This document shows, piece by piece, positions 27,634 through 40,086 of a stretch of DNA of 64,000 nt. Below the pieces are notes generated by a model that was given only the letters and a program-made list of their open reading frames with translations, searched no databases and had not been told where the DNA came from. The translations under genes were made by a program, and so were the position numbers. Source of the DNA: Maridesulfovibrio ferrireducens (lineage in GTDB: Bacteria > Desulfobacterota > Desulfovibrionia > Desulfovibrionales > Desulfovibrionaceae); NCBI RefSeq assembly GCF_016342405.1, contig NZ_JAEINN010000017.1:1-64000 (forward strand), in the 5' to 3' direction. The first letter of the stretch is position 1. Each line of letters opens with the position of its first letter.

Positions 27634-28347
27634 TTATGCCGTCTCAACAAGAATAGCTTCGGCTTGATCAGAACGTAAGTGCAGGCGCAAACCTTCATTG
27701 CTGAGAATAATTACATGATTGTTGTGGCTCATGCGGAAATCTTTTGCCGGTTCAACGTTTTCAAGTCTGATATTTATTCCGGGTTTGATTCCGAAGAATG
27801 ATAATTTTTCCGCAACTCTGGGGCTGCCGAGGATAGATTTTGTTTCAAAAGTTTCTCTTTTGCCACAGGTTGCAAGCTGACATTCTTCCTTGCCGCATAC
27901 TCCCCATACTTTAGCTGCCATGCCTTCAGTTATATGAGTACTTTTTCCGTCCACTACTACGTGGTAATTCATAGAAGGAAGGCACCGGATAAATTCAATA
28001 TTATCCCCTTCGTTTAAACCTAGAGTTTTAAGGCTGCTTTCCAGACAGGATGCCGCTGTGAGTCCTTCGATGTGGCCTTTTTCGCCTTTTCTCATTTCAA
28101 ATACCGGAGTTTTATGTCCGTCATCGTGATGAATTATTATTTTTGAAGCCATTCCGGCAGCAAGTAGGACTTCACCTTTCGGGCCTTTGACTCTTACCGG
28201 GCAAAGTACAGAATCTTCAGACATAATTTTCAGTTCACAGCCTGGGCGCAGCCCCATGCGTTCCAGTCGGTTTTTAAGATTTTCTCTAGTGATAGTTTTC
28301 AGAATCAACGGTGTTTCAATGGGGGCTTTAGTGAGAGGAGTGGACAT
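27634..28347 (-). CDS. Triple FeoA-domain protein
   Basis: A protein of about 237 residues made of three SH3-like FeoA modules. The first is TITRENLKNRLERMGLRPGCELKIMS (about 15-85), the second has LESSLKTLGLNEGDNIEFIR (about 90-160) and the third has SPRVAEKLSFFGIKPGINIRLENVEP (about 180-237). Between the second and third lies a CGKEECQLATCGKR cysteine group. FeoA modules regulate or assist ferrous iron transporters. The start ATG 28347 shares one base with the stop of the P-type ATPase gene (TAATG-type coupling); a longer in-frame start at 28389 would overlap it. It is the last gene of the iron operon and may regulate the ATPase as FeoA does FeoB. Confidence 0.82.
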   Translation of the reverse strand: MSTPLTKAPIETPLILKTITRENLKNRLERMGLRPGCELKIMSEDSVLCPVRVKGPKGEVLLAAGMASKIIIHHDDGHKTPVFEMRKGEKGHIEGLTAASCLESSLKTLGLNEGDNIEFIRCLPSMNYHVVVDGKSTHITEGMAAKVWGVCGKEECQLATCGKRETFETKSILGSPRVAEKLSFFGIKPGINIRLENVEPAKDFRMSHNNHVIILSNEGLRLHLRSDQAEAILVETA

Positions 28348-30476
28348 TATAGCGCCTCGTTTAATGGTTCTTTGGGGTTGGATTCGCAAGGTGAAGATGA
28401 TGTTTTCAGGGCTGCATATCCTAGAATTCCCACTGTGCTTAAATTATGAGCCATTGCCGCTGTCAGTGTCGATATTTTACCTGTTCCTGCCAGAAGAAGG
28501 GTGGCAGAATTGATTGCAACAGCCGACCACAGGCAGGAGGTGAGAGTCTCGCGGTTATTGATCGCAATAAGGCGGGCTTTCAAAAGTGTTCTCATGTCTT
28601 CATCCATCATAACGACCTGTGCGGACTCGCGCGCAAGGTCGGCCCCTGAGGGCATACATATTCCGACATCCGCACATATTAATGCAGGAGTATCGTTGAC
28701 GCCGTCTCCAGCGAATCCTACTTTTGCACCGCGGTCTTTGAGTCTTTTTACAATGGTGGCTTTGTCCTCGGGCTTAAGTTCCCAATGGACAGAATCAACG
28801 GCGGGAAGTTGTGCTGCGAGCGCCAATGCTGTCGAGCGATGATCTCCGGTAAGAATTTCGATATGTTTGATTCCAGCGGCTTTGAATCCTGCAAGGGTTT
28901 CCGCTGCTTCGGGGCGCAGTTCATCGCGCATGGCGATGATTCCGATAAGTTTTTCATTCATTGCTACAAATAGAAGGTTTTTACCCTCATTACGTAACTG
29001 ACGTGAAGTCTCTTCCATGGATGTGCAGTCTACGAGTTCATCTTCTTCTATAAAGTGCTGGCTTCCGACAAGTATTCTTTTTCCGTCAACATATGCGGAA
29101 ACACCGTGGGCAACAATAAAGTCGACCCCGCTTACTTTCGGTAGTGATATGTCGCGGTCCTTGGCTTCTTTAACGACCGCTTTGGCAACGGGGTGGGCAT
29201 AATGTTCTTCGGCTCCGGCAGCAATAGAAAGAAGTTCTTTTTCAGAAAAGGCAGGTATGGGTACAATGTCGGTAATTTTCAGAATTCCTTGGGTCAGGGT
29301 TCCGGTTTTGTCGAATACAAGGGTGTCAATGGCTGCTAGATTTTCTAAAGCCTGACCTCCTTTCAGCAGAACTCCTGCCTGACTGGCTGTATACATGCTT
29401 GTTCTGGTAGCAATAGGAGTGGAGAGTTTGATTGCGCACGAGTAGTCAACTGTGAGAACTGCCGCGGCCCGGGCTGCATCCTGTGTGAAAGCATATACTC
29501 CCAGACCAAGAGCGAAGGTGAGCGGAACCAGTTTGTCTGCGAGTTCTGAGGATTTAAGCTGAGTTTTGGATTGCGAACGTAATGATGTTTCCAGAAAACG
29601 GTTGATCCGTGCCATACCCGTTTCGGAGCCGACTTTGTCAGCCCTGATTTTTAGAGTACCTTCTTCAACCACTGTGCCGGAAAGGGTGACATCACCGGGT
29701 TGCAGATGTACAGGAACAGATTCGCCTGTGATGGAGCTTTGATTAACTGAGCCGTCACCTTCGACAATGGTTCCTTCCACGGGGATCATTTCTCCGGGAC
29801 CGCAGACTACAATTTCACCGACTTGCAGTTCTGTAAAATTAATTTCAATTTCCCGTCCGTCCCGTTCAATCCATATCTTTTCTATCTGTGGCTTGAGGAG
29901 CGTTTTTAATAGATCGGTTGATTTTTGCTCAGATTGGTCTTCAAGGTATTCACCTAAACTAAGTAAGGCTCCTATAGAGTTGGAAGTGAAATATTCTCCG
30001 CGAAGCAGCGAGAGGGTTTTGACCGTTCCATCCAGAACTTCAATTTTGACACCGCGGGTGAACAGAGTTTGGATTGCAGTAACAATTCCCGGAATTGCAA
30101 GGCCCCAGCTTGTAGCCATCTGTACAGGGCCGGGAAGTATTGGGATAGCCGCTGCGACTGCTGTTTTAGCTCCAACATCGAAAAGATCCACGCTGTGGTT
30201 TTTTTTATTACGATTCAAGAAAGCTTCATTCGGGATTTGTTTAAGTGCCGCAATAATTGATGTTCTGGTGGCATCGGTTCCATCATAATCAACGACTATG
30301 CAAAATGCGGGACCGTTGACTCTTACGGCTGTAACTCCAGAAAGAGATTCCACTCCGGCTTGCAGGTAATTAAGGTCCAGATCCGGGGCGAGCATTATGA
30401 TTGAACGCAGTCTTATTCTATAGGGAAGTTCGTGGACAATTTCAAAACGGCTGGTCCTGAGCGGCATGCGAGTCAT
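28347..30476 (-). CDS. P1B-type metal ATPase with SCA motif (P1B-6-like, FezB-like)
   Basis: A 709-residue heavy-metal P-type ATPase of the inner or an organelle membrane. An N-terminal HMA_2-like domain (about 8-75) has LPYRIRLR in place of a CxxC metal site. SSITGESVPV (actuator, about 250), the membrane motif VDYSCAIKLSTP (about 340-351), phosphorylated Asp in VFDKTGTLT (about 388), EEHYAHPVAKA and AGDGVNDTPAL are all intact. The usual CPC is SCA, which I associate with the P1B-6 class found in iron loci and required for ferrosome formation in Desulfovibrio magneticus (FezB). It overlaps its neighbours on both sides. Iron transport into a compartment is the favoured role. Confidence 0.88.
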   Translation of the reverse strand: MTRMPLRTSRFEIVHELPYRIRLRSIIMLAPDLDLNYLQAGVESLSGVTAVRVNGPAFCIVVDYDGTDATRTSIIAALKQIPNEAFLNRNKKNHSVDLFDVGAKTAVAAAIPILPGPVQMATSWGLAIPGIVTAIQTLFTRGVKIEVLDGTVKTLSLLRGEYFTSNSIGALLSLGEYLEDQSEQKSTDLLKTLLKPQIEKIWIERDGREIEINFTELQVGEIVVCGPGEMIPVEGTIVEGDGSVNQSSITGESVPVHLQPGDVTLSGTVVEEGTLKIRADKVGSETGMARINRFLETSLRSQSKTQLKSSELADKLVPLTFALGLGVYAFTQDAARAAAVLTVDYSCAIKLSTPIATRTSMYTASQAGVLLKGGQALENLAAIDTLVFDKTGTLTQGILKITDIVPIPAFSEKELLSIAAGAEEHYAHPVAKAVVKEAKDRDISLPKVSGVDFIVAHGVSAYVDGKRILVGSQHFIEEDELVDCTSMEETSRQLRNEGKNLLFVAMNEKLIGIIAMRDELRPEAAETLAGFKAAGIKHIEILTGDHRSTALALAAQLPAVDSVHWELKPEDKATIVKRLKDRGAKVGFAGDGVNDTPALICADVGICMPSGADLARESAQVVMMDEDMRTLLKARLIAINNRETLTSCLWSAVAINSATLLLAGTGKISTLTAAMAHNLSTVGILGYAALKTSSSPCESNPKEPLNEAL

Positions 30477-30733
30477 TTTGTAATCCTTTTGGGAGTTTTA
30501 TAGGCCGCGCAATGCATTATTGTGAATCCTACAAAAGCAACAGAGGCCCAGATATGCAAGGGTTTGGCTCCTTTGAATTTTAGAATGCCGGAAGTGAAGG
30601 TTACTCCCAGTGAAGCGACCATTCCGACTTTAGCGGCAGTTTTGGAGAGATTCGGTTCCAGAGGACAGCTGTCTCCGCATGGGCGTTTTTTGATTTTCTT
30701 AATTTTTGCAGGTGTTGTGTTCATGATTTCCAT
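30473..30733 (-). CDS. Small membrane protein of the iron operon
   Basis: An 86-residue protein with a basic N-terminus (KIKKIKKRPCGDSCPLEPN, including a CxxxC pair) and two hydrophobic segments (AAKVGMVASLGVTFTSGIL and PLHIWASVAFVGFTIMHCA). It overlaps the ATPase start by four bases (ATGA), so the products are probably made in fixed ratio. The start may be the ATG at 30733 or the one nine bases further in (30724). The family is not recognised. Membership in the operon suggests a partner or anchor of the ATPase. A strong hairpin lies just before its start codon. Confidence 0.72.
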   Translation of the reverse strand: MEIMNTTPAKIKKIKKRPCGDSCPLEPNLSKTAAKVGMVASLGVTFTSGILKFKGAKPLHIWASVAFVGFTIMHCAAYKTPKRITK

Positions 30734-30787: not shown

Positions 30788-31141
30788 CTATTTAGATTGG
30801 CTGACTTCAGCTTTAATGTCCTGAATTTTTTCCTTTGCTTCTTCAATTCCACCTTGGATAGCAGTCCATATCCGCACTGATCCTGAAACGACTGCTTTCT
30901 GTACCTTGGGATTTGAGGCAACAAGAGCGACTCCTGCTCCGATAGCAATACCTTTGAGGTAGCGGGAATCAGTAACGTTTACCCAGCTTTTCAGGCGGGA
31001 GGGTGCATTTTCAGCCTGAATTGGTTGAACGGGCTGAATCTGCTGAACAGGCTGCTGAACTGGAACAACCTGATTGGGATAAGCAGTCACAGGTGGGGCC
31101 TGATAATAGTATGTGTAATCGCTGTTATAATCTTGACTCAT
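30788..31141 (-). CDS. Pro/Gln/Tyr-rich membrane-associated protein (DUF5132-like)
   Basis: A 117-residue protein. Residues 1-45 are low complexity (Tyr, Pro, Gln, Val; VQQPVQQIQPVQPIQ). Residues about 62-85 form a short hydrophobic segment YLKGIAIGAGVALVASNP, followed by an amphipathic charged helix (AIQGGIEEAKEKIQDIKAEV). The KGxxxGAG segment and charged tail resemble the DUF5132 type found beside P1B ATPases. The preceding, longer protein has the same layout, so the two are paralogous. The start codon shares a base with the stop of that gene. A coat or scaffold role on a metal-storage membrane is possible (inference). Confidence 0.75.
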   Translation of the reverse strand: MSQDYNSDYTYYYQAPPVTAYPNQVVPVQQPVQQIQPVQPIQAENAPSRLKSWVNVTDSRYLKGIAIGAGVALVASNPKVQKAVVSGSVRIWTAIQGGIEEAKEKIQDIKAEVSQSK

Positions 31142-31872
31142 TATACTGTTCCTTTATCTTCTTTGGTTTTAGCTGTTTGTGCTGCTTTGTATTCTTGTTC
31201 TGCTTTGAGATCTTCTTGTTTTTCCTGTTCTTCAGCGGACATTTCATCGGATTTTCCGAAGATGCTTCCTACGCCTGAAGTAAAGACGGATCTGACTGTT
31301 TCGCTTGTGCATACAAAGGTTATTCCTGCTCCAACAAGCAGTCCTTTCCAAAAGCTGTCATCAATGCCGTTGAAAAAGCTGAGAAAGTTGGAAGGGTCAG
31401 CGTTGCCGTCAGCGGTATCTTTAACCAGATTTACAAATTGTTTGATCTGTTCGTCTGCTGCCGGAGGGGCGGAAAGTGGAACCTGCTGCGGAATAGGTTG
31501 CTGGTAGGGCTGTTGAATAGGCTGAGCATACATTGGCTGCTGGTATACAGGCTGTCCGTAAACGGGCTGCTGAATAGGCTGTCCGTAGACAGGTTGCTGG
31601 ATTGGCTGTGCGTAAACAGGCTGTTGGATTGGTTGCTGCACTGGCTGCTGGATTGGTTGTCCATAGACTGGCTGTCCCTGAATATCCGTCTGAGCATATC
31701 CGGTTGACACGGGAGATCCCTGATAAGGATCGCCGGGCATAGTGTAGGAATAATGAGGCTGTCCCATATCCGGTCCCATTACCGGCTGTGCGGTGTAGGG
31801 CTGTTGTGGAATGGTTGTTTCTTCATGTGAATGCTGATCCGGTGCCGGCTGAATAGTCTGTTCTGTAGTCAT
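31141..31872 (-). CDS. Gln/Pro-rich repeat protein with membrane segment
   Basis: A 243-residue protein. About residues 60-130 are made of degenerate repeats of the unit QPVYGQPIQ / QPVQQPIQ. A helical part follows (EQIKQFVNLVKDTADGNADPSNFLSFF), then one hydrophobic segment FWKGLLVGAGITFVCTSETV (about 172-191) and a highly charged tail. The KGxxxGAG segment is shared with the following 117-residue protein. Such low-complexity extensions can mediate condensation or coating. Base composition of the repeat is GC-richer than its surroundings. It belongs to the iron operon; function not established. Confidence 0.78.
   Translation of the reverse strand: MTTEQTIQPAPDQHSHEETTIPQQPYTAQPVMGPDMGQPHYSYTMPGDPYQGSPVSTGYAQTDIQGQPVYGQPIQQPVQQPIQQPVYAQPIQQPVYGQPIQQPVYGQPVYQQPMYAQPIQQPYQQPIPQQVPLSAPPAADEQIKQFVNLVKDTADGNADPSNFLSFFNGIDDSFWKGLLVGAGITFVCTSETVRSVFTSGVGSIFGKSDEMSAEEQEKQEDLKAEQEYKAAQTAKTKEDKGTV
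31500..31690 (-). repeat. Coding tandem repeats (QPVYGQPIQ type)
   Basis: On the plus strand, short units such as GGCTGCTGGATTGGCTG and GGCTGTCCGTAAACGGG recur about nine times at 27-30 base steps with substitutions. They encode the Gln/Pro/Tyr repeats of the 243-residue protein. This explains the repetition; it is not a CRISPR array, since there are no unique spacers. Confidence 0.8.
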
Positions 31873-31916: not shown

Positions 31917-32225
31917 TTAGTTCATCAGTTTTCCGTAAAGACCTGTGATAATCTCAACCTTTTTAATTTTGTCTTTTCCCTGAATCAGTTCTTCGATGAT
32001 TTCAGGAGATATTTCGTCTGTATTGTATTCGATGACCACAGATCTGGCGGTCATATTAACCCTTGCGGCAAGAATTGCTTTCGGTAATTCTTGATGCTCT
32101 TTCATGGCTTTTAATGCCGCGGGTTTGGTAAGGATCAGCGGGCTGAATTTTACCCTTATGCGACCCGGAACGTGGTGAGCCACATCCAGATAGTTTTCGA
32201 GATCAATCAGCTTATGAAAGTTCAT
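31917..32225 (-). CDS. HMA_2-like domain protein (FezC-like candidate)
   Basis: A 102-residue single-domain protein with the ferredoxin-like HMA_2 pattern: DVAHHVPGRIRVKFSPLI, then ARVNMTARSVVIEYNTDEISPEIIEELI. The PGRIRVK motif replaces the CxxC metal site and is shared with the N-terminal domains of both ATPases in this operon. It overlaps the upstream CPC-type ATPase gene by 14 bases. It may be a free version of that regulatory domain or the equivalent of a Fez accessory protein. It has no Cys, so direct soft-metal binding is unlikely. Confidence 0.78.
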   Translation of the reverse strand: MNFHKLIDLENYLDVAHHVPGRIRVKFSPLILTKPAALKAMKEHQELPKAILAARVNMTARSVVIEYNTDEISPEIIEELIQGKDKIKKVEIITGLYGKLMN

Positions 32226-34410
32226 TCGTTTTTCCTGCTTCTATCATTAATGGTTTGGGGGAGTGGGCCAGAAGTCTTGACGAGTTGGCAATAACTCCCA
32301 TTGTGTGAGCTATATGGAGGAATCCAGCCATAACTGGAGTGAGTACTCCAGTGGCTCCCATGATAACTCCGACTATGTTTGAGCCTGTTGCCAGCCAGAA
32401 GTTCTGGTAAGCTATTTTTACTGTGTCCTGGCTGAGTTTATGTACAAAGGTCAGCCCGTTCAAATCGTCATTAACAAGAGTTATATCCGCGGCTTCTACT
32501 GCTACTTCGGCGCCTCCTGTTCCCATGGCTATTCCAACATCTGCTTGTGCGAGTGCCAGTGCGTCATTTATACCGTCTCCCACCATCAGTACTTTTTTGT
32601 TTTTATCTTGAAGAGTGCGCACCAGTGTTGCTTTTTCTTCGGGCATGGCCGAGGCATGTATTTCCGGTATGTGTAGAACTTTCGCTAAGTGTTCGGCTGT
32701 TGCGGGTTCGTCTCCGGTAACCAGAACAGTCTTTTCAATTCCATTCGCCCTTAAGGATTTAAGAGCGGCAGCAGCCTCGGGTCTGATTGTATTTGCAAAA
32801 GCCATAATACCGACAGGTTCTCTATCTTTAACAACATAAATGACAGTCAGCCCTTTACGTTTAAGAGTAGAAACATGGCTGCTCAGTTTGCCGATGCGCA
32901 CGTCAAATTGTTCTGTGAGTTTTTTGTTACCGACCAATATTTCAGTTGAAGCTCCGACAGCAGAAGGAAGTTCAGCCCGCATTCCTTTACCCAGGAAATA
33001 TTCGCAGACAGTATGGGTCAGGGGAGATATGTTTCTTTTTTGCGCAGCACTTTTGATTGCTTGAGCCAGCGGATGGTGGTTGTGGGTTTCGACAGAAAGA
33101 GCATAATTTAGAATTTCATCTTCGGAAGTACCTTTGATCGCATAAATATGTTCAAGGGACGGTTCGTTTCCGGTAAGGGTTCCGGTTTTGTCAAAGCAGG
33201 CAATTTCACAATGTCCCACTTCTTCAAGATACCTTCCTCCTTTGATGAGGATGTTGTGTCTTGCCGCAGTGTTGATGGCTGCGCTGATAGGAGTTGAAGC
33301 TGAAAGTACGGTGGCACATGGACAGGCCATGACCAGAAGCACGGTGAACGCTCTCCACGGACTGGCTGTTAGCAGCAAGGTGCCGATAGTTGCTCCCAGA
33401 CCTATTTTGACTAAGCGTACTGAAAGTTTGTCTGCTACTAATTCAATGTCGGTTTTATTTTCAAGAGAGTCTTCTACTTTATGAAGAATTCTAGCGAGAT
33501 AAGTACTGTCTCCAACTTCTTCTGCTTTGACGTAGATTACGCCTTCACGCACGAATGTTCCGGCGAAAACCTTGTCCTCGGTTTTTTTGTGTATAAAGTC
33601 GGCTCTTCCTGTGATCGGGGCTTCGTTTATTAATCCCTGACCATCCACAATGAGCCCGTCAATGCAGATTTTTTCTCCGGTGTGCAGGACAACCACATCT
33701 CCTTTTTGAAGTTGATTTATTTCAACTTCAACCTCCACTTCATCTTTCAGTACAAAAGTATGATGGGAAGTCTTATCAAGAATGCCTGAAATAGCACGGC
33801 GGGAACGTTCTGTAATCCAAGCGGTCAGAAGTTCTGCTCCGGCATTGATCCAGAGTATTTCAAAGGCAGTCATGGCCTCTCCGGCAACAACCGCAGCAAT
33901 AATGCCGCCGGCAAGAATCCCTTCAAGTCCAAATTTTCTGTCTTTGATTTTTTTGAATGCTTCTTTTACCAGCGGAGCGGCAGCAATTACAGTGATAAAT
34001 CCCAGAGGACTTAAAAGCGTTTGAGCAATGGTCAATCCCAGTAGGGATTCGCTTATTAATACAGCGCCACCTACTGCGGAGATGAAGGAGAAAGATCTTA
34101 AAGCGTTGCGGACTTCGGGGCAGCACCCTTTTTCTTTGTTATTTACCGGGCAATTTTTTTTGTAATTAATTCCGAGAAGATCATGAATTGTTCTGGTTAA
34201 CAGTTCAGGGGAAAGGACGTGGTCATTGTAGTTTATAATTACACAGGAACATTTTTTATTGATTCTTGTGTGGTTGACCCCTTCAAGGGTTTCTAGATTT
34301 TTTTCAAGAGAACTGGAAAGTAGATGGTTATTTTTTAGAATCGAAATTTTTAGTCGGATTCTTCCCGGTATCGAGTGTTGTACTTTTGTCTTATTGTGTC
34401 TTGTTTTCAC
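32212..34410 (-). CDS. P1B-type metal ATPase, CPC motif, altered actuator loop
   Basis: A 732-residue heavy-metal P-type ATPase and the first gene of the operon. The N-terminal HMA_2-like domain has HSIPGRIRLKIS. A VNNKEKGCCPEVR patch follows. The ion-binding motif is MACPCATVLSASTP (about 360), the phosphorylated Asp is in FDKTGTLTGNE (about 407), and NHHPLAQA and VGDGINDALAL are intact. The actuator motif, normally TGES, reads ITGRADF (about 266), so the Glu needed for fast dephosphorylation is Arg. This may slow or decouple the cycle. Two such ATPases in one operon is unusual. The promoter at 34492-34520 and an iron-box-like element lie upstream. Confidence 0.88.
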   Translation of the reverse strand: MKTRHNKTKVQHSIPGRIRLKISILKNNHLLSSSLEKNLETLEGVNHTRINKKCSCVIINYNDHVLSPELLTRTIHDLLGINYKKNCPVNNKEKGCCPEVRNALRSFSFISAVGGAVLISESLLGLTIAQTLLSPLGFITVIAAAPLVKEAFKKIKDRKFGLEGILAGGIIAAVVAGEAMTAFEILWINAGAELLTAWITERSRRAISGILDKTSHHTFVLKDEVEVEVEINQLQKGDVVVLHTGEKICIDGLIVDGQGLINEAPITGRADFIHKKTEDKVFAGTFVREGVIYVKAEEVGDSTYLARILHKVEDSLENKTDIELVADKLSVRLVKIGLGATIGTLLLTASPWRAFTVLLVMACPCATVLSASTPISAAINTAARHNILIKGGRYLEEVGHCEIACFDKTGTLTGNEPSLEHIYAIKGTSEDEILNYALSVETHNHHPLAQAIKSAAQKRNISPLTHTVCEYFLGKGMRAELPSAVGASTEILVGNKKLTEQFDVRIGKLSSHVSTLKRKGLTVIYVVKDREPVGIMAFANTIRPEAAAALKSLRANGIEKTVLVTGDEPATAEHLAKVLHIPEIHASAMPEEKATLVRTLQDKNKKVLMVGDGINDALALAQADVGIAMGTGGAEVAVEAADITLVNDDLNGLTFVHKLSQDTVKIAYQNFWLATGSNIVGVIMGATGVLTPVMAGFLHIAHTMGVIANSSRLLAHSPKPLMIEAGKTNELS

Positions 34411-34674: not shown

Positions 34675-34998
34675 TCAGGATTCAATTTTTTTTGTTAAAT
34701 TTGTTCCAATAGATTTATCCCACATGATTTTTGTTCCTGTGGCTATTGCGGTAAAGCCTATAATTCCGGCAAGTCCACCAATTCCGAGCAAACCTACGAT
34801 GGCTATTCCAGTACCTGTAGCCAATCCCGTTCCAGCTGATTCTGTTGCTACAGCTTTTATTACTTCACGGCTTGTCATTTTGCCTTCTTTAACTGCGATT
34901 GTTCCGCGTACAGCGGTTACAGTTCCGCTGATCAAAGCTCCGGTGACTGCCATGGAGGCTGTTGCGATAGGAAGTATTCTTGTTGTGGGCGTAGTCAT
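34675..34998 (-). CDS. Glycine-rich hydrophobic membrane protein
   Basis: A 107-residue protein with two hydrophobic regions. The second is strongly glycine-patterned (GTGLATGTGIAIVGLLGIGGLAGIIG, about 58-83), reminiscent of the glycine-repeat segments of small magnetosome and organelle membrane proteins. The N-terminus is Thr-rich (MTTPTTRILPIATAS). It lies between the iron operon and the divergent fur-type gene, with its own upstream region containing a CAATTG-spaced element. Its role is unknown; a small integral protein of an iron-storage membrane is a reasonable inference. Confidence 0.7.
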   Translation of the reverse strand: MTTPTTRILPIATASMAVTGALISGTVTAVRGTIAVKEGKMTSREVIKAVATESAGTGLATGTGIAIVGLLGIGGLAGIIGFTAIATGTKIMWDKSIGTNLTKKIES

Positions 34999-35202: not shown

Positions 35203-35634
35203 ATGACAAGTCCTCAACATATTTTTTTAAAATATTTGTCAAAAAAAGGCATGGCTGCAACTGAACAGCGCAGGGTTGTGTTGGAGATTTTTCTCAAGAG
35301 TAAAGGGCATTTTTCTTATAAAGAACTTTATATTCAGGTCCGTGAAGCAGATTCGAGTATAAGTTCGGTTACGGTCTACAGAACAGTCAAACTTCTTGCT
35401 AAGTGCGGTATTGCCGGGTCCATTGATTTCGGGGACGGGATCACTCGTTATGAATGCAGGTATAACAGGCCTCATCATGATCATCTCGTCTGCACAAAAT
35501 GCGGTAAGAAGATAGGGGTGGTCGATGACAGTATTGAAAATTTGCAGGAGTTGCTGGCTGAAAAGCATGGGTTCAGTATAAAAAGACACAAGATGATTCT
35601 TTTTGGAATTTGTTCTGATTGTCGCGATAGTTAA
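35203..35634 (+). CDS. fur: Fur-family metalloregulator
   Basis: A 143-residue dimeric repressor. The N-terminal winged helix shows MAATEQRRVVLEIFLKSKGHFSYKELYIQVREADSSISSVTVYRTVKLLAKCGIA (DNA-recognition helix SSVTVYRTVKLL). The C-terminal domain has the metal site HHDHLVCTKCGK and a second Cys pair in CSDC, both typical of Fur and its relatives. It lies between the glycine-rich membrane protein gene (divergent) and the small membrane protein gene, within the iron locus. It probably controls the ATPase operon and feoAB through the shared 16-base element. Which metal it senses cannot be fixed from sequence, but context favours iron. Confidence 0.88.
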   Translation: MTSPQHIFLKYLSKKGMAATEQRRVVLEIFLKSKGHFSYKELYIQVREADSSISSVTVYRTVKLLAKCGIAGSIDFGDGITRYECRYNRPHHDHLVCTKCGKKIGVVDDSIENLQELLAEKHGFSIKRHKMILFGICSDCRDS

Positions 35635-37223: not shown

Positions 37224-37568
37224 ATGTTTAATAAGTTCGATTTTCTTAACGGCGGAATCTCTTCCGGCAAGAGAGAGCAGCGGCGTAGGCATGGAGGCAG
37301 AGGCGGGCCCGGTAAAAAATGCATTATGCGCGGTAAAAGTGTTCTGGATATTGCTGTGGGTGGTAAGGCTAAAATAAGAAGACATTTTTCATGCGGCGCA
37401 GTGCGGCAGCGTCTGCTTGATCTGGGTTTTATTCCAGGCCGTGAGGTTGAGGTGATCAGGGTTGCAACTCTCGGGTGTCCGCTTGAGCTTAAGGTTGCCG
37501 GATATTGCGTTACCCTGCGTCGTACTGAGGCGTATGAAATTGAGGTGGAAGATGAGTTTAGAGGTTAA
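37224..37568 (+). CDS. feoA: FeoA-type protein with basic N-terminal extension
   Basis: A 114-residue protein. Residues 40-114 are the SH3-like FeoA domain (VLDIAVGGKAKIRRHFSCGAVRQRLLDLGFIPGREVEVIRVATLGCPLELKVAGYCVTLRRTEAYEIEV). The first 35 residues form a basic, glycine-rich extension (GKREQRRRHGGRGGPGKKC) not usual for FeoA. It is the first gene of feoAB, and its end overlaps the feoB start by 17 bases. It supports or regulates ferrous iron uptake by FeoB in the cytoplasm and is under the iron-box promoter at 37140-37200. Confidence 0.9.
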   Translation: MFNKFDFLNGGISSGKREQRRRHGGRGGPGKKCIMRGKSVLDIAVGGKAKIRRHFSCGAVRQRLLDLGFIPGREVEVIRVATLGCPLELKVAGYCVTLRRTEAYEIEVEDEFRG

Positions 37569-40086
37569 TAGCAAAGGCAAGGCAGCCAAAGATAATTTCC
37601 TTATTGCGCTGGCCGGGCAGCAAAATGCCGGTAAATCTACAACGTATAACATGCTTACCGGAGCAAATCAGCATGTGGCTAATTATCCGGGGGTAACCGT
37701 TGATAAAAAAGTCGGCAGCTATCGTGAAGGAAAGACTCGTTATGAAATTGTCGACCTTCCCGGTACATACAGCCTGACTTCGTTTTCACTCGAGGAAAGG
37801 GTGTCGCGTGATTTTTTTCTTGAGGAAAAGCCTGACGTAGTGGTTAATGTCGTGGATGCAACTGCTTTGCGCCGCAGTCTGTATTTTACTTTTCAGGTTT
37901 TGGAGATGGATTTTCCGGTTACTATTGCCCTGAATATGATGGATGTTGCTGAAAGTCAGGGGTTAACCATTGATTTGCAGGAACTAAGTTCGCGGCTCGG
38001 GGTGGATGTTGTCGCCACTGTGGGACGTAAGGGTAAAGGGAAGCAGGCACTGAAAGCCGCAATTCGTAAGTCAGTCAATCAGGAAGCTTATAATCGTCCT
38101 GTTACAATTGACTACGGTGAGCTTGAAGAGCATTTGCAGGAACTTGAAAAAAAGCTGGCTGAAGATGCCTTTTTAGGGGGGCTTTATCCGTTACGCTGGC
38201 TGGCAATCAAGCTGCTTGAAAATGATCCTGAAGTGTGCAGGCTTGTTGAATCAAAACATTTTAAAGGGTCAGAAATAATTGAAAATTCTATTTCGCGCCG
38301 TGATAGTTTTGAAGAAGCCTTGGATATTGATACGGGAGACTACATTGTCGCCTGCCGGGACAGGGTTGCAGGTGAGATTGTAGATGCATGTGTTCAGAAA
38401 GAGGATAGTTCGAAACAGCCTGTTTCCGAACGTATTGATAGATGGGTACTCAACCGTGCAATGGCTCCCTTTTTTCTTCTTGCTACAGTCTTTATTATTT
38501 ATGAGCTTTCTATTGTTCAGGGGTATAAGCTTACTATTTATACTTGGCCTTTGCTGGCAAAATTCAGGGATATTATCGCCAGCTTTTTACCTTCGGCAGG
38601 ATTGATTGAGGATTCTTTGCTGAGGTCCATGGGGCTGTGGATGGTGGATAGTGCCAACACTCTTTTAAACTATGTGCCGATCTTTTTTATTCTTTTTGCG
38701 CTTATAGCCATCCTGGAAGACTCCGGCTACATGGCTCGCATTGCTTTTATTTTAGACCGCATATTTCATAGTTTCGGTTTGCATGGACAATCAACACTTC
38801 CATTTATTCTGGGTGGAGTTTTTGCCGGAGGATGTGCTGTTCCGGGGATTATGTCCACCAAAGGTATTCCCGATGAAAGGTCGCGGCTGGCAACGATTTT
38901 AACGGTTCCGTTTATGAATTGTCTGGCAAAAATTCCCCTTTATACCTTGCTGGTGAATATTTATTTTGCCGAGCATAAATCATGGGCAATGTTCTTTATC
39001 GGCACCATCACAATCATAATGGCTATGATTATTGCTAAGGTTTTGACCTCAACAATCCTTAAGGGACGTGAGACCGCTCCGTTTATTATGGAAATGCCCA
39101 ATTACCATGCACCTACATTGTTCGGAGTCGCGCAACGCTCAATTGAACGTACATGGGAATACATCAAAAAAGTCGGGTCCATTGTTGTAGCCGTTTCCTT
39201 GTGTGTGTTTTCCTTGTTGCAATTCCCGGGGCTTAGTGAAGAGCGTATGGATTATTATAACGCTGAAATGAGTAAAGCCGCGGCTGTTTTTGATGCCAAA
39301 GTTTCAGGCACTACCTACGCCGAGGTAGGCGAGTCTGGAAAAATGCTTGCTTTGCTTAATTTCTACGATAATTACAAACGCGCTCGGATGAATTCATCAG
39401 GTAAGAGTGGGGCCGCTTCAGTTGATGCTAAATTCAAAGCTGATAATCCAGAATTGTTCACTGTGCTGAAACCGCATAGCAATAAAGATGCAAAGATAGT
39501 TAACCGTGCTTTGCGTAAGGTTTCATCCAAACGTAAAAGTTTGCGGCGCAAAATAAAGGAAGAGAAAATTAAGACTTCTTTTTTTGGTATGATTGGAAGA
39601 TCTCTTGAACCTGTAACCCAATTGGCCGGATTTGACTGGAAGGTGAATATTGCTTTGATCAGTTCTTTTGCCGCTCGTGAATCCTCTGTGGCAACAATGG
39701 GAGTTTTATATCAGCAAGGGGCGGATGAAAATCAGACACTTGAACAGAGAATGGATAATGAGAGTAAGTCTTCTGGAATGACTCCATTGCATGCTCTCGC
39801 AATTATTATTTTCTTTGCTCTTTACCCTCCATGTCTTGCCGCTACGATTATGGTGAAGGTTCAAACCGGGTCATGGAAATGGATGGTCTTTTCCATTGTT
39901 TTCCCCACGACGATTGGTTTTGCGGCGGCTTCAGCTGTGTTCACTGTGGGGAATGCGGTGGGGGCCAGCGGTATAGTTATGATGAAAGGGTTTTACCTTG
40001 TCTGCCTTGGAATAGCGTTTTTGATAGCACTTCAGAGTAAGCTCTCTTCAGATAAGATAGCAACACGCCACGTGTATCAGGCATAA
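37552..40086 (+). CDS. feoB: Ferrous iron transporter FeoB
   Basis: An inner-membrane Fe(II) permease of about 844 residues. The N-terminal G domain has GQQNAGKST (22-30), NYPGVTVDKKVG, VDLPGTYSL and NMMD. The membrane part contains the paired Gate motifs around FILGGVFAGGCAVPGIMSTK, TVPFMNCLAKIPLY and ARESSVATMGVLYQ. I chose ATG 37552 (MSLEVNSKG); the longer frame from 37462 only reads through feoA out of frame. It is longer than the common 770 residues because of a hydrophilic insert of about 120 residues (roughly 575-690) between membrane segments. FeoB-type uptake would supply iron for hydrogenase and cytochromes and for storage. Confidence 0.93.
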   Translation: MSLEVNSKGKAAKDNFLIALAGQQNAGKSTTYNMLTGANQHVANYPGVTVDKKVGSYREGKTRYEIVDLPGTYSLTSFSLEERVSRDFFLEEKPDVVVNVVDATALRRSLYFTFQVLEMDFPVTIALNMMDVAESQGLTIDLQELSSRLGVDVVATVGRKGKGKQALKAAIRKSVNQEAYNRPVTIDYGELEEHLQELEKKLAEDAFLGGLYPLRWLAIKLLENDPEVCRLVESKHFKGSEIIENSISRRDSFEEALDIDTGDYIVACRDRVAGEIVDACVQKEDSSKQPVSERIDRWVLNRAMAPFFLLATVFIIYELSIVQGYKLTIYTWPLLAKFRDIIASFLPSAGLIEDSLLRSMGLWMVDSANTLLNYVPIFFILFALIAILEDSGYMARIAFILDRIFHSFGLHGQSTLPFILGGVFAGGCAVPGIMSTKGIPDERSRLATILTVPFMNCLAKIPLYTLLVNIYFAEHKSWAMFFIGTITIIMAMIIAKVLTSTILKGRETAPFIMEMPNYHAPTLFGVAQRSIERTWEYIKKVGSIVVAVSLCVFSLLQFPGLSEERMDYYNAEMSKAAAVFDAKVSGTTYAEVGESGKMLALLNFYDNYKRARMNSSGKSGAASVDAKFKADNPELFTVLKPHSNKDAKIVNRALRKVSSKRKSLRRKIKEEKIKTSFFGMIGRSLEPVTQLAGFDWKVNIALISSFAARESSVATMGVLYQQGADENQTLEQRMDNESKSSGMTPLHALAIIIFFALYPPCLAATIMVKVQTGSWKWMVFSIVFPTTIGFAAASAVFTVGNAVGASGIVMMKGFYLVCLGIAFLIALQSKLSSDKIATRHVYQA

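Follow-up and report, generated by a model that had tools for sequence, protein, structure and literature searches.

Loss of the catalytic actuator glutamate across a clade of P1B-type ATPases usually encoded beside a glutamate-intact pump

Can a P-type ATPase be conserved without the glutamate of its actuator loop, a residue regarded as a hallmark of catalysis in this superfamily? The question is raised by a gene in a 64,000-nucleotide stretch of Maridesulfovibrio ferrireducens (contig NZ_JAEINN010000017.1, positions 1 to 64,000), referred to here as the window. The original prediction for this gene held that TGE is changed to TGR in the actuator loop, that all other motifs are intact, and that the enzyme is kept but may cycle slowly, act as a sensor or depend on a partner ATPase in the same operon. 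The change is real, as Arg269 stands in the Glu column and none of the 71 members of the clade to which this protein (the TGR ATPase) belongs carries Glu there. Loss of the Glu is an old, conserved trait of a whole P1B branch. The gene and the residues that bear on the question are the following.

32212..34410, (-) strand: TGR ATPase, P1B-type without the catalytic TGE Glu, 732 amino acids (open reading frame list)
33604..33606, (-) strand: Arg269 codon AGA, at the catalytic Glu position (sequence)
33598..33600, (-) strand: Asp271 codon, the clade-typical acid two residues past the lost Glu (Asp/Glu counts in the clade)
33316..33324, (-) strand: CPC metal-site motif, residues 363-365, kept (71/71 of the clade)
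33178..33192, (-) strand: DKTGT with the phosphorylation Asp407, kept (DKTG in 71/71 of the clade)
32791..32793, (-) strand: Asn540 codon, where the D-x-x-R motif of the P domain normally has its Asp (clade column comparison)
32305..32316, (-) strand: HxxH (His699, His702) in the last transmembrane helix, His702 being clade-specific (column comparison)

The open reading frame starts with GTG, and its product matches the Pfam families E1-E2_ATPase, Hydrolase and, at the N-terminus, HMA_2. It scores 480.1 bits against TIGR01525 (cut-off 346.25), which together with CPC in M4, the HMA_2 domain and a P1B fold places it among the P1B heavy-metal ATPases. The phosphorylation Asp of DKTG, TGD, GDGxxND and an actuator domain are present, and the individual motifs read CPC, DKTGT, HHP, TGD and GDGIND. 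Two P-type hallmarks are missing, namely the dephosphorylation Glu of TGE(S), replaced by Arg269, and the Asp that begins D-x-x-R in the P domain ("DPPR" in SERCA), replaced by Asn540. The actuator loop reads T-G-R-A-D, within NEAPITGRADFIHKK, and Arg269 aligns without gaps to the catalytic Glu of CopA and likewise of other P1B ATPases. The protein falls outside P1B-6, the group of FezB, as it has CPC instead of the YSC-type motif that marks P1B-6 ATPases and lies on a separate branch.

A structure predicted from a 13-row alignment (mean predicted local distance difference test, pLDDT, 78; predicted template modelling score 0.61) had the P1B entries 4bbj and 4umw as its top Foldseek matches. 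VIA-align gave Z 29.1 and a root-mean-square deviation (rmsd) of 8.9 over 605 aligned residues for 7qbz, and Z 28.0 and rmsd 7.6 over 582 for 4umw; these comparisons do not discriminate between E1 and E2 states. In the loop itself, residues 266-270, pLDDT is below 50, so the model gives no usable geometry for Arg269 and Asp271.

The extent of the Glu loss was assessed in successive samples. A first search covered 58 genomes, 55 of which had some homologue at an expect value (E) of 0.001, and in the best 17 loci (L001-L017) the Glu position held 16 Arg, one Asn and no Glu. A hidden Markov model built from 11 of these loci was run on phylum and class samples of 395 and 348 genomes, respectively, and named genomes were scanned with the DNA patterns LVMACPCA and GDG[IV]NDAL, which biases that scan toward these motifs; its best 80 loci were kept. 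All open reading frames of the gathered loci were then searched with no filter on catalytic motifs, giving 297 matches at E 1e-60, of which 230 were non-identical. The clade consists of the 70 rows above 600 bits plus L130 (489 bits, TGR), which was added by hand and falls inside the clade in a later tree built without the loop columns.

In the Glu column, the 71 clade members have 65 Arg, two Asn, two Cys, one Val and one Gln, and no Glu, while Glu is present in all 159 non-clade P-type homologues, a contrast well outside what chance would give. Defining the clade by score alone, with L130 outside, gives 70/70 without Glu and 159/160 others with it. The loop variants are TGR (50), SGR (10), NGR (5), TGN (2), TGC (2), NGV (1) and TGQ (1). 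Among the members are records labelled Desulfovibrio, Solidesulfovibrio, deltaproteobacterial, KSB3, Pararhodospirillum, Deferribacterales and two of Chromatiales type. Aligning orthologues thus shows Arg to be conserved (65/71), and no orthologue with TGE, which would have pointed to a local mutation or a sequencing error, occurs among the 71. Two genomes, G003 and G007, carry two TGR ATPase genes each, on separate contigs.

A tree built from 63 hand-picked rows of the 230, 35 inside the clade and 28 outside it (loop columns removed, quick method, no bootstrap), recovers the clade as a single branch with a Shimodaira-Hasegawa-like approximate likelihood ratio support of 100, beside the branch of P1B-6/FezB-like proteins. 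One label change on this tree explains the Glu loss, and no clade member was seen regaining Glu. At the codon level the position reads CGG (24), CGC (11), CGT (10), AGA (8), AGG (7) or CGA (5), with a non-Arg codon in six members; five of the six Arg codons already occur among the 11 close orthologues L001-L011. As all six are in use, Arg is kept at the protein level while the codons drift. Pairwise ratios of nonsynonymous to synonymous substitution rates (dN/dS) were computed among nine genomes (15 of 36 pairs printed, several saturated), and where dS was unsaturated they ranged from 0.043 to 0.093 for the TGR ATPase and from 0.044 to 0.073 for its FezB-like neighbour. Gene decay is ruled out by the low dN/dS and the synonymous Arg codon changes, and a sequencing error, frameshift or local mutation by the clade-wide absence of Glu. 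The chance that any of these underlies the TGR loop is negligible, and no point in their favour was found. The claim that the enzyme is kept is therefore borne out for a clade under purifying selection in which the catalytic Glu is gone from 71/71 members.

Most of the phosphorylation site is retained. DKTG, Lys593, GDGxND and CPC are each retained in 71/71 members, HP in 69/71 and TGD or SGD in 70/71 (60 and 10), and the phosphorylation and metal sites thus look to be under selection. Glu184 is retained in 69/71. In the last helix, His702 is present in 71/71, and the residues at this column do not overlap at all with those of the non-clade set (overlap 0.00). The prediction that all other motifs are intact holds for CPC, DKTGT, HP and GDGxND but not for the D-x-x-R Asp, which is lost throughout the clade: residue 540 is Asn in 60 members, Ala in three, Ser in three, His in three, Thr in one and Phe in one, and Asp in 0/71. 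Outside the clade it is Asp in 153/159, the others being two Glu, one Thr, one Pro, one Ala and one gap.

With two otherwise near-universal acids both missing, the protein might be a pseudoenzyme, no longer cycling but providing a scaffold, structural or metal-binding, either within the compartment membrane or bound to the neighbouring pump. A canonical pump is indeed the usual neighbour (see below), and TMEM94, which has no TGES, is reported in the available part of its description to lack detectable ATPase activity (PMC12134183). The invariance of DKTG, Lys593, GDGxND and CPC in 71/71 members is difficult to account for unless phosphorylation and metal binding are in use, and we consider a pure scaffold improbable.

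Residue 271, two positions past the lost Glu, is Asp in 33 and Glu in 31 clade members (64/71), giving a TGR-x-[D/E] motif; an acid occurs at the equivalent position in only 6/159 sequences outside the clade, and in 47/48 of the clade members that lie next to a FezB-like gene. This may indicate relocated catalysis, in which Asp/Glu271, perhaps positioned by Arg269, would activate the water, leaving a normal pump with a rebuilt phosphatase loop. If the loop is extended, residues i and i+2 could point in a common direction, and the remaining catalytic and metal residues are kept, the D-x-x-R Asp excepted. That second missing acid counts against the idea, as do seven members without an acid at 271 (two Val, two Gln, two Phe, one Met) which nevertheless retain DKTG, CPC and Lys593, and the low pLDDT of the loop keeps its geometry from being read from the model. 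A compensating acid at 271 as a universal feature of the clade was rejected, as it is present in 64/71 only. Relocation of the acid is the main rival to the reading that we prefer, though we hold it to be rather unlikely, and the pure scaffold comes third.

FezB is described as the putative ferrous iron transporter of the ferrosome in the accessible part of PMC11334425. In 48/71 clade members a FezB-like ATPase is encoded on the same strand no more than 6 kb away. Of the members, 51 are flanked by at least 4.5 kb of sequence on each side, and in 50 of these a Glu-intact P-type ATPase lies within 7 kb (same strand in 47), vs 4/39 control loci (other P-type ATPases from the named-genome scan, with the same flanks). 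The 20 members with shorter flanks were kept out of this count; five of them show a Glu-intact neighbour. A partner ATPase like the one noted in the window is thus present beside nearly all long-flank members. The original interpretation is partly supported: the kept enzyme and the partner are borne out, while slow cycling, sensing and dependence on the partner are possibilities.

The partners are of two unrelated kinds, and not all are FezB-like. In L213, L215, L217 and L219, and in the short-flanked L218, the neighbour is an ATPase of 1010-1102 amino acids with Cation_ATPase_N and Cation_ATPase_C domains (P2-like). In L218, L219 and L213, this P2-like neighbour also matches HMA_2 with 28-30 bits, level with the curated cut-off or slightly under it. 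At E 1e-130, nothing FezB-like was found in the genomes of these five loci, and the tie to a canonical pump therefore extends past the ferrosome-type cluster. An S-adenosylmethionine synthetase accompanies the P2-like ATPase in the deep clade members L215, L217 and L218 (by Pfam in L218, by eye in the other two), and L218 also has DUF5132 and HMA_2 proteins, an unfamiliar kind of cluster. In six loci (L169, L171, L172, L176, L179 and L181) the TGR ATPase is followed downstream by a pair of FezB-like ATPases, and in the second FezB-like ATPase of L031, FAC replaces the YSC motif.

At the level of whole genomes, a TGR ATPase match was found in 47/348 genomes of the class (E 1e-160; the loop was read in 46, G705 not included) and a FezB-like match in 48/348 (E 1e-200), with 45 genomes holding both (Fisher p 2e-50, a value that ignores relatedness). 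The two class genomes that carry a TGR ATPase but lack a FezB-like match, G009 and G624, are both less than 85% complete. The reverse case is seen in G499 and G017 (670-680 bits, YSC, TGE) and in G465, whose FezB sits on a 3057-base contig. In the phylum sample, 19/395 genomes match the FezB model (E 1e-190) and 10 of these also have a TGR ATPase. Above 1000 bits to the FezB model, the TGR ATPase is present in 8/9 genomes, the ninth being G228, whose FezB is on a 5236-base contig. The remaining eight phylum matches, in genomes with no TGR ATPase, score 637-702 bits with YSC and TGE and may be either FezB itself or different P1B-6 ATPases. The link to the TGR ATPase thus covers the close FezB-like branch and not P1B-6-like ATPases overall.

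Strict dependence of the TGR ATPase on FezB was rejected, as ten of 23 genome entries searched (22 distinct genomes, since G337 and G730 are identical) hold a TGR ATPase but nothing FezB-like at E 1e-130: G285, G114, G137, G241, G449, G333, G387, G373, G728 and the incomplete G624. In one of these, G285, the TGR ATPase (L208, 1452-3794) is located between cation-diffusion-facilitator-like and FeoB-like genes, as read by eye.

Our preferred reading, held tentatively and at just under an even chance, is that the clade may represent a metal-binding P1B lineage which can be phosphorylated, is slowly or controllably reset, and acts as a latch or regulatory partner of a canonical pump. A distinctive Cys/His metal site is kept alongside the residues for ATP-dependent phosphorylation, and metal binding would still trigger phosphorylation of Asp407. 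The phosphorylated E2 state (E2P) would then be hydrolysed more slowly than normal, leaving a long-lived phosphorylated state in which the TGR ATPase could act on the adjoining canonical pump as a latch gated by metal, or as its regulatory partner; in the window, that pump is the FezB-like one of a ferrosome-type cluster. The retained DKTG, Lys593 and GDGxND argue that phosphorylation is used, and the usual presence of a canonical pump alongside suggests this pump as the target of the held state or as what resets it.

KdpB is the closest guide to the chemistry. Its TGES Glu161 coordinates the water that hydrolyses the phosphoaspartate, according to the available portion of PMC9651954, and in the accessible part of PMC7535926 the E161Q variant, in a construct that carries S162A and KdpA Q116R as well, lacked ATPase activity while its phosphoenzyme level was the highest and insensitive to ADP, a trapped E2-P. 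By analogy, the TGR protein should form and hold E2P. As far as those two partial sources go, Ser162 phosphorylation or E161Q in KdpB resembles the TGR case in that the actuator loop is changed, phosphorylation is possible and the phosphoenzyme is trapped. In KdpB this is a modification or a laboratory mutation, whereas in the TGR ATPases it is an encoded residue change across a clade.

Several observations weigh against the preferred reading. Arg is not absolute, as 6/71 members carry another residue, and what matters may be no more than that Glu is missing. L124 (TGC) has long flanks and no neighbouring pump, and in L036 and L120 the FezB-like gene is on another contig with none in the flanks, one of which is short. 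The co-location counts lack independence, since a single family contributes many of the loci. The YSC/TGE P1B-6-like ATPases in genomes lacking the TGR ATPase (the eight in the phylum, plus G499 and G017) imply that such pumps in general do not need it. Finally, the acid at 271 in 64/71 members might replace the lost base and allow normal turnover.

A further-reaching version of the latch reading, which we regard as unlikely, is that the TGR ATPases may constitute a new functional class: a companion subunit which becomes phosphorylated when it binds metal, does not reset itself and gates or times a separate canonical pump. Its partners would come from two unrelated pump families (P1B-6 in ferrosome-type clusters and, elsewhere, P2-like, in part with an HMA_2-like domain), and its dephosphorylation might be carried out by the A domain of the partner or by another protein.

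In the window, the TGR ATPase belongs to a cluster on the (-) strand which further contains the following genes.

27634..28389, (-) strand: FeoA-domain protein, after the FezB-like gene (Pfam FeoA, two stretches)
28347..30476, (-) strand: partner P1B-6-like ATPase resembling FezB, TGES intact, YSC metal motif (open reading frame, TIGR01525)
30473..30733, (-) strand: FezC-like protein, 86 amino acids (weak DUF4405 match, PF14358)
30788..31141, (-) strand: Q/P-rich protein, 117 amino acids, C-terminal hydrophobic segment (open reading frame)
31141..31872, (-) strand: Q/P-repeat protein, 243 amino acids, C-terminal hydrophobic segment (open reading frame)
31917..32225, (-) strand: HMA_2-domain protein, 102 amino acids, overlapping the end of the TGR ATPase gene (Pfam PF19991, 34.3 bits)
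34675..34998, (-) strand: MamC-like membrane protein, 107 amino acids, upstream of the TGR ATPase and heading the cluster (NCBIfam MamC)

This arrangement resembles a ferrosome (fez) cluster, a putative label given by resemblance. FezC is a DUF4405-like cytochrome of ferrosome clusters in the available part of PMC11334425, and is mentioned for context only; the 86-amino-acid protein of the window matches DUF4405 (PF14358) weakly, at E 5.8e-4 and 20.8 bits, under the cut-off of 26.7. The MamC match of the 107-amino-acid protein (E 1.4e-9, 38.1 bits) is below the cut-off of 100, and a profile of this protein matches 55 clade loci; a link between ferrosome-type and magnetosome genes is possible. 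Profiles of the 117- and 243-amino-acid proteins both match 57 clade loci, though the matches are shared between the two and composition-biased. The repeats of these proteins (30788-31872) read QPVYGQPIQQ..., and neither protein has a Pfam, NCBIfam or PHROGs match; PHROGs gave no match for four small neighbour proteins. A Fur-like regulator diverges from the cluster (35203-35634, (+) strand), with FeoA/FeoB-like genes beyond it (37224-40086, (+) strand), all read by eye. No Fur box was found in the window using one form of the E. coli consensus with up to three mismatches, and a promoter scan gave 12 sites against a shuffle mean of 12.6, i.e. no excess.

Compared with known systems, the TGR ATPase is nearest to FezB and other P1B-6 ATPases, with which it shares the superfamily, a neighbouring tree branch, the gene cluster and, by eye, a similar R-I-R-L stretch near the N-terminus. 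The FezB-like proteins differ in keeping TGE (Glu252 of the partner ATPase, invariant in the 12/12 rows of its alignment), in having mostly a YSC/FSC-type motif where the TGR clade has CPC, and, for the protein of the window, in having no HMA_2 match, which the TGR ATPase has. CopA and ZntA (P1B-1/P1B-2) share the fold (4bbj, 4umw, 7qbz), CPC, DKTGT, HP and GDGxND, but they possess the TGE Glu and their last-helix residues differ from those of the TGR clade; CopA also has the Asp of the D-x-x-R-type motif. TMEM94 (PMC12134183) and the trypanosome flippase-like Tb927.6.3550 (PMC6658743) are likewise P-type-like and are reported, in the available parts of these papers, to be without TGES, but they are eukaryotic and belong to other P-type groups. 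A literature search on TGE-less P-type ATPases, partial in its coverage of the sources, met no such bacterial clade, and a prior description is possible.

The clade is thus a natural bacterial lineage, spread over several groups and under purifying selection, which dispenses with the Glu while keeping most of the phosphorylation site. As such it offers a natural system in which to study either how E2P is reset without the Glu or what purpose is served by a pump that goes without resetting. A second ATPase in ferrosome-type iron clusters is indicated as well, and should the TGR ATPase control its partner, it would act as a switch governing organelles that store iron.

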